Shown here: piece after piece, positions 3,940 to 14,360 of the stretch
How the letters are laid out: the number at the start of each line of letters is the position of its first letter
How positions within the stretch are numbered: position 1 is the first letter of the stretch
Source: an uncultured Clostridia bacterium
Lineage (GTDB): Bacteria > Bacillota > Clostridia > Oscillospirales > Ruminococcaceae
DNA: 64,000 bases
NCBI GenBank assembly: GCA_945876755.1
Contig: CAMCPM010000010.1
Location: forward strand, 1-64,000
Reading direction: 5' to 3'
Position numbers and translations under genes: made by a program
Notes under the pieces: model-generated
Databases searched by the model: none
Seen by the model: only the letters and a program-made list of their open reading frames with translations
What the model was told of the DNA's origin: nothing

Positions 3940-4125
3940 TTACTCAAGTTTTAATTCAATTAAATTTGCCACCTTTGCTTTTGTGCTTTTGAGAACATCG
4001 GCATACACGTTTGCTGTTACGCCTATATCGCAATGTCCTAAATGTTCAGATACAACTTTCAGGTCAACTCCGCTGTTCAGCAGGAGTGTAGCATTAATGT
4101 GGTTTATATGTACGTTTTGGCTTAG
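3940..4125 (-). pseudogene. Tyrosine recombinase, C-terminal remnant
   Basis: The minus strand reads HINATLLLNSGVDLKVVSEH, LGHCDIGVTANVYADVLKST and ends LIELKLE. This is the C-terminal catalytic end of a phage-type integrase: the LGH histidine and the nucleophilic Tyr of NVYADVL are kept, but the expected H-x-L-R-H block reads HINHIN, so the Arg has gone, and everything upstream is lost. Another short open stretch just upstream (about 4125-4220, KNDDVNENFIEEAKPKRTYK) may derive from the same gene in another frame. It is distinct from the integrase starting at base 54. Confidence 0.65.
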
Positions 4126-4247
4126 CTTCTTCAATAAAATTTTCATTAACATCATCATTTTTTATATGCTGGTAACATTCATGTGTAGCAATTACTGTGA
4201 ATATTACATATGGACACACTCACCAAAGCAGCTATATTTCGATATAA

Positions 4248-4368: not shown

Positions 4369-7300
4369 TCATTCCTGCTGAATAAACTCAATGCTCTCAA
4401 AATCAAATGCGCAGCCGGGCAGGAACTGCAGCTTCACGGTCATTTTACCCTGCACAGAGGGCAGCTTTACCGAAACTGCGGTGTAATCCTCACTGTACGG
4501 GAACTCAATTATCTCTTTAAGCACCACTCCCGTTTCGTCCGCAAAATGCAGGTGGATAGAATCGTTATCGTGGTGAGTTCTTCCCGTCAGCCGAACCTCG
4601 GAAACGCCCTTTGCAAAATCCATATCTTCAAAATCAATAAATACGTTGTTTCCGATGCCCGTTATCCTGTCACCAGATATTTCATAACTGTCGCCGTGGA
4701 TAAGGTCGCAGTCCGAAGCGTTCAGCTTTTCATAGGCTTTCAGCTTCGGTTCAAACTTAAAGCCACCGAAGTCGATGCGCAGGTCGGTCTTGTCGAACTC
4801 AAAGTAAATGTCCTGCACTCCCGTCAGCTTTCGAGGCAAAGTATAGCTGTTGTCCTGATAGGTCTGCCATATGAAATCCGCCTGATAGGTGAACTCTCCA
4901 AGACACTCCGAGCCGATTTCACCCGGTTTGCCAAGCCACAGACGGAAGCCAAATGGGTCGTTTTTATGCCAGTTTATTACACGGATAAGGAAGCTGTCCG
5001 TGCCGTATTTGCCGAAATCTGTCTTTGTAAAGCCAACAATATTGTTGTTTGCCTTGATGTTTACGCCGCCCTTTGAAACCTCGTCCATGACCGACAGGCT
5101 GTATGTATAATGACAGGCAGGGAGAAATTCGTAAGGGTCAAAGTATGCCTGACCGAAGCCTTCCGCAGTAAACTCATACTCCGAAAAGACTTCCGCCTGA
5201 GGTTTTCCGTTTGAGCAGGAACAGCGAAGTCTGAATGCTCCGTCACCCGAAGCCGTAAGCAGGGCTGTATTTCCCTCAGCGGAAACAGCGGCGGTGTTGG
5301 TGGGTATTCCGCTGTTTGTGACAACGCTCCATACAATGTCGCCAAAGCCTGCATTTTCTGGCAGAATTTTTGCAGTTATCCTGCTTGACGGACTTTCGGG
5401 AGTAAGTTTTTCTCCCGTATCACGGACAAGCTCTATCTTCCTTACGGGTACTTTTCCGTTTGTCACTTCGGTGATATTTTCCGTGCAGGACACGCCCTTG
5501 CGCACATTTCCTGCGGTTTTCTCTATAACAAGTTCTGCGCCTTCAAGACCCTCGGCAAAGGCTTTTACAATAATTTCACCTGCCTGCGTGTCAGGTACGA
5601 TATAAGCCGCAGCCTTGCCGGAGAACAGCTTGCGCTCTGCGGATTTGTAGCTTTCGTAATCGGTGCTGTCGCCGTTGTCAAAGCCAACAAGCCTGCCCCC
5701 TGCTACCTGTATTTTTACCCTGTCACGGGCATTTTCAACGGCGTGACCGTCTTTATCAACTGTGGAAATTTCCACAACTGCAATATCCTCGCCGTCTGCA
5801 AAAACGGTACGCTTTTCGCAGCTAAGTACAAGCCTTGCGCTGTCGCCGAAGGAATGCTTAACGTCCTCAATTATCTCACCCGACTTTGTTTTTCCGAAAA
5901 TGCGAAGCTCTCCCTTTTCGTAGGGGACTTTCCATGTTACGGTGTACTCCACGGGATGCTTTTTGCCAAGGCTTATGCCGTTAAGGAACAGCTCCGCTTC
6001 GGGAAGATTGGTGTAAGCCACAACATCTATCATCTGCCCCTCGTTGAAATCCCAGTAAGGCATAAGATGAAGCACAGGCTTGTCCGTCCATGCAGCCTGA
6101 TAAAGATAGAAGCTGTCCTTTTTAAGTCCTGCTGTGTCAATGCTGCCGTAGTACGAATTTTTGGTGGAGTAAGGGGTAGGCTCTCCGATATAGTCCGAGC
6201 CTGTCCAGATAAACATTCCTGCGCAGTAGTCACAGTCGCGGTCAAGGGCGATTATCTTCTGGGGCGTATCGGCGGAGATACCTGCACGGCAGTTGCCCAG
6301 AGAGCTGCATTGCAGGTCCTCATGTGTAAGAAATGCCGCATCTCTCGGGAAATGATACACTCCCCTGCTTTTTACGCCTGCGGTAGTTTCGCTGCCGTAT
6401 ATTTTCCAGTCGGGATGTGCGTTATGATGTGCTGCATAAAGGCTCTCACCGTAATTGTAGCCAACAAGGTCGACTTCCTCCGAGCAGCGCTGTGCGCCCT
6501 CCCAGGGCATATAGTTTGAACCATGTGTGGTGGGAGCATTGCAGAGAGGGTCGTGCTTTCTTACTGCGGCGTGGAGCTGCTTTATCACCTCACAGCCTCT
6601 CGGAGAAACGTGAGCGTCATATATCTCGTTTCCAACGCTCCACATAATAACGCTTGGGTGGTTTCTGTCACGCCTTACCCAGCTTGCCACGTCTTTTTCG
6701 TACCAATCGGGGAAAAAGCGAGCGTAGTCGTACTCCGTCTTGGGGCGCTCCCACATATCAAAAGCTTCGCTGTCCACAAGTATGCCCATTTCATCGCAAA
6801 GCTCCATAAATCCAATTGCAGGAGGGTTGTGTGACGTTCTCACAGCATTAACGCCCATATCAAGCATAGACTGAAGCTGACGGCGAGCCGCAGACTTGTT
6901 GAATGCTGCGCCAAGACAGCCAAGATCGTGGTGAAGGCAAACGCCGTGAAGCTTAATATGTCTGCCGTTAAGGAAAAATCCTTCATTCGGGGTGAATTTA
7001 ATATCCCTTATGCCTGTTTTCTGCTCTATGCGGTCAATTTCTTCGCCGTTTTTCAGCAGTACAGCTTCAAGGGTAAGGAGATTGGGCGAAGCAATATCCC
7101 AAATATCATTTTCGTCAAGTCCGTCAAGGGTAAACTCTGCGGAAGTTAGCTTTTCCGCAGGATATTCCCCCGAAAACAGCAGCTTTTCACCATTTTTCAA
7201 AATAAACTGCAGCTGCGCTCCCTCCGCATTTTCTGTTTCAGCGGATATATTGCAGAGCCAGCCTTCGTTCTGCTTTTCTGCGTGGAAATACACACCGTCC

Positions 7301-10636: not shown

Positions 10637-11026
10637 ATGGATAAAACCGCACTGGAGCTTTTGAAGCCTGTTTCGGGAAATGCTTAGTTTGTGGATAAGG
10701 TGAAAAGGCTTGAAGCTGAAATCGTGAATCAGAATTCCGAAACGGAAAAGTGGCATAAAGAATATCAGCTGTATAAAGACGAATACCATCGGCTTGTTAA
10801 AGAGAGAGAAAAATTAATCAAACATATTGACAAACTGAAATAGGAGTTTTCTGCCGAACAAGCCAAAACCTCCGAAACAGAAAAACATATAGCCGAGCTT
10901 ACGGACAAATCCGTTGCAATTGCTGAAATGGGAGAAAGGCTCAATGCTATTTTCTGGATTTTGTTAGAAACCGTCAAAACGGGTATAATAAAGAAAATCT
11001 TAAATCAGCTCACAAGAAAGTTGTAA
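10637..11026 (+). pseudogene. Coiled-coil mobilization-type gene with two in-frame TAG codons
   Basis: From ATG 10637 a single frame of 129 codons reads through with only two interruptions, both TAG: at 10685 (PVSGNA*FVDKVKRLEAE) and 10841 (IDKLK*EFSAEQAK). In both places Gln would fit, so each may be a CAG to TAG change. Between and after them the protein is a charged coiled coil (YHRLVKEREKLIKHIDKLK, TSETEKHIAELTDKSVAIAE) with a hydrophobic, basic end (KKILNQLTRKL). Such tails occur at the C-terminus of MobA/Pre-type relaxases like TnpZ of Tn4451 elements, which suits the neighbouring tnpW and serine recombinase; the relaxase domain itself is absent. Other genes in the window use TAG as a stop. 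Confidence 0.5.
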
Positions 11027-11080
11027 ACACATTGAATTAAAAAGGTTGAAAAAGAGGTTGGCAGAATGTCGCAAGTGCAG

Positions 11081-11143
11081 AAAAGGTACACCTTTTCCCG
11101 TCAAGCTCCGCTGACGGCTTGTTAGGAGCTGTCTGCCCCTAAC
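11081..11143. repeat. Cluster of three inverted repeats, candidate oriT
   Basis: Three stems follow one another: AAAAGGT/ACCTTTT (11081-11096), CCGTCA/TGACGG (11098-11117) and GTTAGG/CCTAAC (11121-11143). The block lies 55 bases past the mobilization-like pseudogene, in a non-coding gap of a Tn4451-type element. Mobilizable clostridial elements keep their transfer origin beside the mob gene, so this is a candidate; a terminator is less likely because no T-run follows. Confidence 0.4.
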
Positions 11144-11233
11144 ACCCAAATAATGTTTAAAAAAATCAGAAGTATATTTTTCTAAATGCCTATGTGAAGC
11201 AAGCATAATGCCTAAATACGGCTATCCGAAATG

Positions 11234-11379
11234 AAAACTGTACAGTTTTTCATCGCTTGCGAGTGTTTCCGAAAAGATACGTATCTTTTCCACGCTTGCG
11301 GGCTTTTACCCATAAAGTCATATGACTTTTCATCGCTTGCGGATATCTTCATCACAAATCATATTCAACCGGGTTGAAT
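11234..11379. repeat. Tandem palindrome array with shared GCTTGCG tails
   Basis: Three units about 40 bases apart, each a perfect palindrome followed by the same tail: AAAACTGTACAGTTTT (11234-11249) with CATCGCTTGCG; GAAAAGATACGTATCTTTTC (11271-11290) with CACGCTTGCG; AAAGTCATATGACTTT (11314-11329) with CATCGCTTGCG. A fourth palindrome, ATTCAACCGGGTTGAAT (11363-11379), lacks the tail. The palindrome cores differ while symmetry is exact in each, and A-rich/T-rich edges are shared. No open reading frame crosses the array. Function unknown. Confidence 0.85.
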
Positions 11380-12013: not shown

Positions 12014-12059
12014 ATAGCTAAGCATTTAAGATTAGTTATAATGTGATTGCCCAAGATTT

Positions 12060-12156
12060 ATTAAAAATTGAATAATGGCGTCCCAAAGGAGCGGGGCGGA
12101 ACAGCGAAAGAGAGCTAAGAGCAAATCTGCGGATTTGTTTCATAGCTCTCTTTTTT
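12060..12156 (+). promoter_or_regulatory. Structured leader with terminator-like hairpin before tnpW
   Basis: A G-rich block (TCCCAAAGGAGCGGGGCGGA) is followed by AAAGAGAGCTA ... TAGCTCTCTTT with CAAATC/GATTTG inside, then a T-run (TTTTTT at 12151). Sited between promoter and tnpW, it can act as an attenuator, or as the terminator of a short RNA of about 140 bases starting near 12020. Confidence 0.5.
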
Positions 12157-12185
12157 ATTTTGACGAAAAAGAAAGAGGGAACAAA

Positions 12186-12479: not shown

Positions 12480-14150
12480 ATGCCAAAGCAGACAATTTAC
12501 AATGCAGGGATCTATGTAAGGCTTTCCAAGGACGATGAGAGAGCAGGAGAATCCCTGTCCATAGAAAATCAGAAGCGTATTCTCACAAGCTATGTTACCG
12601 AGCAAGGTTGGAATATCGTTGATATTTATGTCGATGACGGTTACAGCGGAACAAATTTTGACCGCCCCGGTGTCACTCGTTTGCTTGAAGATGCTAAAAC
12701 AGGAAAAATCAATCTTATCATTGTTAAGGACTTATCCCGTTTCGGCAGAAACTATATTCAGGTTGGTCAGTACATCGACTACATCTTTCCAACCTACAAT
12801 ATCCGCTTTATTGCTCTGAATGATAATGTTGATACTTTCAACACCGACAGCACTGCTATGGATATGATGCCTATAATGAATGTATTCAACGAGTGGCACG
12901 CTGCCAATACGTCCAAAAAGATTCGGGCTGTTATTGAATCTAATGCGAAGTCGGGAAAGTATCGTACAACTTTTGCTCCTTATGGGTATGTCAAGGGTGA
13001 TGATGAAAATCGTCTGCCTGTTGTGGACGAGCCGGCGGCAAGTGTTGTTCGGCGAATATTTGAAATGCGTTCACAGGGTATCAGTCCAAGACACATTGCT
13101 GACACTCTAAATGCAGAAGGTATTCCGACTGCATCGGATTATATGTATTCCAAACTCGGAAAGCCCAATCCACGCAAAACGGCTCACTTGTGGGGAACAA
13201 AAACGGTAAAGCAGATACTAAATAATCCGATTTATCTCGGAAACTTATATCAGCTTCGTTCAACTACCGTATCCTATAAGAATCATAAGGTTGTAAAAAA
13301 GGACAAGGAATATTGGATAGTAATTGAGAATACTCATGAGCCGCTTGTTTCTCAAGAGATATGGGACAAATGTCAGGAAATTGCTGAATCTGTCAGTCAG
13401 GGCAAGAGGACAAAAAAGGGTGAAACAATGCCTCTCAGCGGATTAATGTACTGTGCAGACTGCGGAGAAAAGATGCGTTTGGGAACGAATAATACCACGA
13501 ACGGAAGTAAAAAGCTGCCGAGAAAGTACATTCGCCACAATTATCAATGTGGGGCATACAGCCGTTTCGGGAAATTTTACTGCACAAGTCATTATATCAA
13601 GATGAAGGATATAAATGCGGTTGTGCTTGCGGATATTCGGTCAATGGCTGAACTTGTTGTTGAGGACGAAGAATCGGCAAGACAGAGATTCCTTTCGGAG
13701 AAAGCTAAACTTAATGAACGTCAGACTGCCGATGAAGAAAAACGTCTTCGTGACGGCAAGCATCGTCTTGAAGAACTCAAAAAGTTGATACCTTCTATTT
13801 ATGAAGATAAGGTGTTAGGTAAAATCCCGGAGGACGTTTGCGTAAATTTGTTGGAAAAGTATCAAGCAGAGCAGAAGGCGTTGTCCGCAGAGGTGGAAGA
13901 GCTTGAAGCGAAGCTGTCCGCCGTAAAGAAGGACGAGGAAGATGTTGAGGAATTTATCCGCCGCTTGAAGAAATACACCGATGTGCAGGAGCTTACACGT
14001 GAAATGACTCTTGAGCTTATTGAGTACATCACCGTTGACGAGTATGCCGCCGGCAGACCGAGAGATATCCATATTTATTACAAATTGATTGAAAAGCCGC
14101 TTCCTCACAAGAAGTATCTTGAAGTGGCTAAGAATGAAGAAACCGCCTGA
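12480..14150 (+). CDS. Large serine recombinase (TnpX-type)
   Basis: 556 aa. N-terminal resolvase domain with the catalytic Ser in AGIYVRLSKDD (about residue 16) and the supporting motif IIVKDLSRFGRNYIQVGQYI. Recombinase domain at ~170-300 (APYGYVKGDDENRLP, RHIADTLNAEGIPTASDYM). A zinc ribbon follows (MYCADCGEKMRLG, NYQCGAYSRFGKFYCTSHY), then a coiled coil (~395-500). It excises and inserts its element through a Ser-linked break at short core sites. Together with tnpW it marks a Tn4451-like element; it is shorter than the ~700-residue TnpX of Tn4451 itself. The frame is intact and all core motifs are present, so it may be active even though the element is decayed. Confidence 0.9.
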   Translation: MPKQTIYNAGIYVRLSKDDERAGESLSIENQKRILTSYVTEQGWNIVDIYVDDGYSGTNFDRPGVTRLLEDAKTGKINLIIVKDLSRFGRNYIQVGQYIDYIFPTYNIRFIALNDNVDTFNTDSTAMDMMPIMNVFNEWHAANTSKKIRAVIESNAKSGKYRTTFAPYGYVKGDDENRLPVVDEPAASVVRRIFEMRSQGISPRHIADTLNAEGIPTASDYMYSKLGKPNPRKTAHLWGTKTVKQILNNPIYLGNLYQLRSTTVSYKNHKVVKKDKEYWIVIENTHEPLVSQEIWDKCQEIAESVSQGKRTKKGETMPLSGLMYCADCGEKMRLGTNNTTNGSKKLPRKYIRHNYQCGAYSRFGKFYCTSHYIKMKDINAVVLADIRSMAELVVEDEESARQRFLSEKAKLNERQTADEEKRLRDGKHRLEELKKLIPSIYEDKVLGKIPEDVCVNLLEKYQAEQKALSAEVEELEAKLSAVKKDEEDVEEFIRRLKKYTDVQELTREMTLELIEYITVDEYAAGRPRDIHIYYKLIEKPLPHKKYLEVAKNEETA

Positions 14151-14190: not shown

Positions 14191-14313
14191 GCGATGTTTG
14201 CTACTTTATCTGTATATACTCACGCATTCAACGAGGTAAAAGCCAAAGCCACAGACGAGATCGTAGATATGCTTCATCTGAACGAGAAATCCGGCTCCCG
14301 TAAGACAAGCTGA
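14191..14313 (+). pseudogene. Tyrosine integrase C-terminal remnant beside tRNA-Pro
   Basis: In the plus frame ending TGA 14313: ATLSVYTHAFNEVKAKATDE followed by IVDMLHLNEKSGSRKTS. This is the last ~40 residues of a phage/ICE integrase, keeping the nucleophilic Tyr in SVYTHAF. Upstream of about 14193 the frame is lost, so the rest was deleted or displaced when the serine-recombinase element arrived. An integrase 3' end pointing at a tRNA 3' end about 100 bases away is the usual layout of a tRNA-targeted island. Confidence 0.7.
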
Positions 14314-14360
14314 ATTCAGAGTTGTCCAAAATTTGACCAAAGCCCATAATCTGATATAAG

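Follow-up and report, generated by a model that had tools for sequence, protein, structure and literature searches.

What a close succession of different perfect palindromes sharing one tail might be for is the question raised by this locus. In the window, that is the whole 64,000-nucleotide stretch of DNA that was analysed, positions 11234-11341 contain three perfect palindromes of 16, 20 and 16 bp, 39 and 41 bp apart from tail to tail, and each is followed by the same tail CGCTTGCG (Table 1). An earlier sequence-only reading had described exact dyad symmetry in units of ~40 bases, which these lengths and spacings bear out. It had also taken the GCTTGCG tail and the A/T edges as constant parts: the tail is constant in the window units, while the edges vary in length. 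In each of the three units, exactly 13 nt separate the dyad centre from GCTTGC. The 64-kb window has six perfect palindromes of at least 16 bp, whereas 30 Markov sequences had a mean of 1.3 and a maximum of 3. Half of these six are the array units, inside 96 bp, and the sole 20-bp palindrome of the window is one of these. Our answer, drawn from sequence comparison, is that the array very probably corresponds to tandem oriTs on a relaxase-less integrative mobilizable element, usable by several helpers. Such an element codes for no cutting enzyme and, to move between gut bacteria, probably relies on those of several other mobile elements.

Table 1. Features of the array and its surroundings (positions in the window).
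Feature	Position	Strand	Description
Pseudogene of coiled-coil gene ("ORF-U")	10637..11026	+	two in-frame stops; the intact gene flanks oriT in relaxase elements
Older inverted oriT-like unit Q	11071..11097	-	GAAAAGGTGTACCTTTTC then TGCACTTGCG; conserved in L037 and L033
Putative oriT unit P3	11232..11261	+	palindrome AAAACTGTACAGTTTT 11234-11249 (20-bp frame 11232-11251), spacer, GCTTG|CG; dyad centre 11241/11242; tail at 11254, GCTTGC at 11255; predicted nic 11259/11260
Putative oriT unit P2	11271..11300	+	perfect 20-bp palindrome GAAAAGATACGTATCTTTTC 11271-11290, CAC, GCTTG|CG; dyad centre 11280/11281; tail at 11293, GCTTGC at 11294; predicted nic 11298/11299
Putative oriT unit P1	11312..11341	+	palindrome AAAGTCATATGACTTT 11314-11329, spacer, GCTTG|CG; dyad centre 11321/11322; tail at 11334, GCTTGC at 11335; predicted nic 11339/11340
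Odd inverted repeat	11363..11377		TTCAACCCGGTTGAA; adjoins the XRE stop codon, no nic tail, conserved in sister copies
XRE-family regulator, 167 aa	11381..11884	-	constant neighbour of arrays
Large serine recombinase of the element	12480..14150	+	element end ~14205-14215, inside a tyrosine-integrase 3' remnant

The units are more numerous than had been counted, as the older inverted unit Q and additional units in sister copies have to be included. The geometry of Q deviates from that of the others (12 nt instead of 13, core CACTTGC). The TTCAACCCGGTTGAA repeat is probably a feature separate from the array. On the 3' side of the array the order is XRE gene (minus strand), divergent small ORF and large serine recombinase, and the right end of the element is found at 14205-14340 within the 3' remnant of a tyrosine integrase gene, in agreement with the earlier assignment of the locus to a mobile element. 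This same site is also used by another serine-recombinase element in genome G407 (L089). Divergent from the XRE gene, positions 12040-12160 hold a conserved untranslated stretch, GGCGTCCCAAAGGAGCGGGGCGGAACAGCGAAAGAGAGCTAAG, with a terminal terminator-like hairpin; it is also present in L001 (reverse strand, ~690-780) and L034 (~2340-2440), and had no match in Rfam.

In sequence, the units have the architecture of an oriT. The array tail agrees with the published nic sites of Tn1549 (RYGCTTG|C), pRS01 (CTTG|CA) and pRJ6 (TGCTTG|CCA) (PMC7755788). The pRS01 oriT oligonucleotide used for nic determination contains GTAAGATGCTATCATCTTACTATGCTTGCAAAAGG (PMC4256276) and reads GTAAGATGCTATCATCTTAC-TAT-GCTTGC, a 20-bp inverted repeat centred 13 nt before GCTTGC. 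An inverted repeat directly 5' of the nic core, at fixed spacing, is thus found in the array, in pRS01 and at relaxase-linked sites, as is characteristic of MOBP oriTs of the Tn1549/pRS01/pRJ6 type. The nic core RYGCTTG|C is fully matched by P2 and the sister units, and P1 and P3 carry a T two bases before GCTTG, where the consensus has a purine. The locus had been said to fit no known type of element; its spacing, its nic consensus, the linkage to relaxases and the identity of inverted repeats place it with the Tn1549/pRS01-type MOBP oriTs. A MOBQ-type oriT (TAAGTGCG|CCC) was the first idea and was rejected because a MOBQ-like site of the same genome, beside MobA/MobL, has that tail, which differs from the tail of the array. 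The site in question (L079, G000:C7, ~4080-4140) is a canonical MOBQ-like oriT, with an inverted repeat followed by ATAAGTGCGCCC just 5' of the MobA/MobL gene.

Linkage of such units to one class of relaxase was surveyed in the same bacterial family at 112 loci with a PF03432 relaxase, where every GCTTGC on both strands was scored for a dyad centre, with 105 loci having equally many GCTTGC as controls. At the relaxase loci the near-perfect dyads clustered at offset 13.0, with 17 cases against no more than 4 at each other offset, while the control loci had a single one at 13.0. For the core [AG]CTTGC, 77 loci of the same genus gave 18 dyads at 13.0, 10 at 14.0, 6 at 12.5 and at most 3 elsewhere. 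The units are located 5' of the relaxase in 53 of 54 cases in the listed loci, 43 of these on the opposite strand; their distance from the relaxase domain is mostly ~420-530 bp. The genes at relaxase loci follow the order coiled-coil ORF, oriT, MobC/NikA-like gene, relaxase gene. Base pairs that had been excluded from the selection of units are still paired in the 66 distinct units (pair 10 in 55/66; pairs 1 and 2 in 44/66 and 43/66). The two bases before GCTTGC are R in 58/66 and Y in 64/66 of these units, which reproduces the published Tn1549 consensus. The identity of MobC proteins tracks that of the inverted repeats (Spearman 0.63; 0/1000 permutations), a correlation that partly reflects shared ancestry.

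Confinement of the pattern to this single site had been named as the finding that would speak against it. The arrangement is kept in six XRE-linked relatives (L001/L071, L037/L074, L034/L076, L049/L073, L033/L077 and L103), of which L001/L071 is a second copy in the same genome (contig C1) and the other five are from other genomes. The unit closest to the XRE gene has GTCATATGAC, followed by GATACGTATC or the double-compensated GGTATATACC, then CTGTACAG and then others, e.g., GTAATATTAC; some copies have lost one or other unit, and L103 carries GGTATATACC and GTACGTAC. At one position of the array the core changes from GATACGTATC to GGTATATACC (the variant found in L049) through two compensatory pairs. 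P3 is kept in L037, L049 and L071 and is degraded to ATGTACAG in L034, which belongs to another genus. The proposal that symmetry is preserved while sequence changes therefore stands, and what is conserved is structure, namely inverted repeats able to form ssDNA hairpins. XRE proteins beside arrays are 86-90% identical; among the matches listed, those of at most 66% identity have no array alongside, and a scan of genome contigs for the XRE gene gave only one further array, that of L103. The arrays accompany different serine recombinases, which indicates a module that is not part of one recombinase system. The region had no blastn match to plasmids or phages.

Several further features were observed in these and other loci. 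L103 has at ~940-990 a 23-bp direct duplication, AATTATATGCAGATACTCGCAAG, whose joints are at CTTG, as if from relaxase cutting. The cargo of L071 (9439-18740) resembles a defence region, coding for a helicase with an HNH motif, a small invertase, a restriction-endonuclease-like protein and a large restriction-methylase-like protein with an inverted specificity-like fragment; the array may thus also govern the spread of such restriction-type genes. L424 (G371:C4) has two oriT units with different repeats, at 4801 and 4978; they are inverted relative to each other at a distance of 177 bp, and no relaxase was found near them. This pair is possibly a second kind of multi-oriT site.

Many mobilizable elements have no relaxase, and the array-bearing elements appear to be among them. 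Matches to PF03432 and PF03389 in the genome of the window are found only on contigs C37, C12 and C7, and the contigs that carry the arrays, C10 and C1, have none. PF03432 gave no match on G240:C4 or C19, nor, among the matches listed, in G192 and G125. What had been called a mob remnant (10637-11026) is what is left of the coiled-coil gene usually found beside oriT, now a pseudogene, and does not derive from a relaxase. Its region has 72% DNA identity over 529 bp to L361, 5' of the mobC-relaxase genes of that locus, and the region homologous to unit Q is located in L361 between the coiled-coil gene and mobC-relaxase. The orientation of Q is the one expected if a mobC-relaxase operon were on its right; by this comparison the operon is missing and the array occupies its position. 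In L102/L075 the tail of unit 1 is joined to the palindrome of unit 3. Such a joint is the product expected of relaxase-mediated nic-to-nic recombination, and ordinary recombination at the repeated tail could possibly have yielded it as well. Recombination between distinct oriTs mediated by pWBG749 is documented and is a known by-product of multi-oriT plasmids (PMC4652767).

Repeats of sister units recur, identical in sequence, at oriTs linked to relaxases. The GAAAAGTAATATTACTTTTC palindrome and the GTAATATTAC repeat are common to the array copies L071/L074 and the relaxase locus L359, whose oriT tail GCTTGCTGTCCT is the same as in L074; GAAAAAGTACGTACTTTTTC and the GTACGTAC repeat of array L103 are identical to those of the oriT of relaxase locus L352, and the oriT tail TACGCTTGCGAGTATCT of L360 is identical to the tail of an L103 unit. 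Single oriTs with two of the three window repeats are present in other elements of the genus, all at sites that lack a relaxase: the P2 palindrome (GATACGTATC core) at G402:C87 (L425), beside a MobC gene and with no relaxase nearby, and the P1 core (GTCATATGAC) at G408:C38, C50 and C100 and at G371:C27. In the genus searched no relaxase-linked oriT was found that matches CTGTACAG, GATACGTATC or GTCATATGAC exactly, and CTGTACAG was not found there as a single relaxase-linked oriT. The MobC and relaxase coded by contig C37 of the same genome are a candidate helper. This relaxase is 74% identical to that of L360 and ~50% to others; it has 341 aa vs 505 aa in its best relative and may be truncated. 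The C37 MobC, coded before the relaxase, is most similar to that of L425 (68%). Contig C37 is cut before its oriT, which is predicted to have a repeat close to GATACGTATC or GTGCGCAC and a GCTTGCGRGTATCT tail.

If the array is a set of oriTs, each unit would combine an inverted repeat of 16-20 bp with the nic core GCTTG|C, the two being separated by a short spacer. The MobC/NikA-like accessory protein of a helper would recognize the inverted repeat, its PF03432 (MOBP) relaxase would nick at GCTTG|C, and the excised element, mobilized in trans, would exit through the conjugation pore of the helper. Different repeats combined with one nic would make several helpers usable, or would allow helpers whose repeat specificity changes to be tracked. 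A more tentative proposal, to which we give somewhat less than even weight, is that the element traded its own mobC-relaxase for a compact modular set of oriTs with different helper specificities, whose units are gained, lost and reshuffled through cutting at the nic core, so that the array would in effect keep a record of the helpers that its lineage has met and serve as a key ring for them.

Two insertions exactly at palindrome centres could suggest that the array is instead a tandem of attB landing pads for large serine recombinases, in which palindromes with a central TA host other elements. In L075/L102 the distance between the end of the serine recombinase R1 and CTG-TA|GG is 39 bp, and the R1 element end (..AATACCTA|) is fixed by a 98% identical R1 in L181 (G112:C115) that ends at the same AATACCTA; L033/L077 break at GTCA-TA|GGG, with an arm similar to that of R1. 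Landing pads would, however, leave unexplained the constant GCTTGCG at fixed distance, the match to nic sites and the relaxase linkage; two cores have CG rather than TA at the centre, the other R1 insertion site is no palindrome, and the recombinase of the window uses the tyrosine integrase gene. This makes landing pads very unlikely. Integration of IMEs into oriTs of ICEs has precedents (PMC7563843); the insertions are thus explained by the units being oriTs, and we consider them a side effect (R1 in L075, probably also L033). That the recombinase of the window itself uses the array as its att site was rejected, the right end of its element being in the integrase gene remnant, outside any palindrome. 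R1 itself is a 540-aa serine recombinase whose element is found at the central TA of the oriT palindrome in L075/L102 (G240:C19), with the junction after CGCAAGCGATGAAAAACTGTA. In L033/L077 (G192:C31, ~13874-13895) the GTCATATGAC palindrome is cut at the central TA and joined to the R1-arm-like GGGTTTAGTTTTATTGTGC, one flank being visible.

Palindromes also suit dimeric DNA-binding proteins, the XRE gene always adjoins the array and MobC-like proteins probably bind the inverted repeats, as would be expected of an operator array (decoys or a specificity set) for dimeric repressors such as XRE or MobC proteins, acting without nicking. Yet the cores are unrelated, so that one XRE protein, of 86-90% identity, cannot have them all as its operator, and the nic core is invariant and in register, the same units being found 5' of relaxase genes; we hold operators to be about as improbable as landing pads. 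The least probable alternative is a structured non-coding RNA or terminators 3' of the XRE gene, close to the RNA hairpins that had been envisaged from the sequence. The units are located in the 3' region of the XRE transcript and their pairing is kept by compensatory changes, but no Rfam family matched above chance, the A/T-rich stems do not have the form of terminators, the same units are oriented opposite to the neighbouring genes at relaxase loci, and the constant, non-palindromic part of the units is a DNA nic consensus.

Taken as oriTs, the units imply that the choice of helper by relaxase-less elements may be readable in DNA, where ~110 bp accommodate several different oriTs and the helper specificity of each can be read. 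Searching for a palindrome centred 13 nt before RYGCTTG|C locates oriTs in gut Oscillospiraceae independently of a nearby relaxase, and identical inverted repeats tie helper to hitch-hiker from sequence alone.

The closest known system is the oriT of pRS01 (LtrB relaxase) and Tn1549, which shares with the array the 20-bp inverted repeat centred 13 nt before GCTTGC and the core RYGCTTG|C; it is a single oriT beside its own relaxase, whereas the array has three or more in tandem and is relaxase-less. The oriT mimics of the staphylococcal pWBG749 family (OT49, OT45, OTUNa and others) are carried, 2-3 oriTs together, by relaxase-less elements (PMC4652767, PMC8136818). In these, too, the inverted repeats differ while the core is conserved, the repeat is tracked by an accessory protein (SmpO there, MobC/NikA here), and recombination joins one oriT to another; they differ in their core CTTATGCTCTT, in the IR1-IR3/AR architecture and in being plasmids, while the array of the window belongs to a chromosomal element. 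Relaxase-less IMEs with an iOriT (hitcher elements) are similarly integrative and have a recombinase and an oriT without relaxase (PMC11389934), but they are described with an oriT, and several different oriTs side by side are undescribed in the papers searched. The IME_oriT elements are paralleled by the serine-recombinase element in an oriT palindrome in L075, probably also in L033, although the known ones target MobT-type oriTs in streptococci (PMC7563843). No tandem oriT array of ~40-bp period in an integrative element was found in the open literature that was searched. Mimics of oriT are known from relaxase-less elements, and some plasmids have two or three different ones; the compact tandem array looks like a new form.
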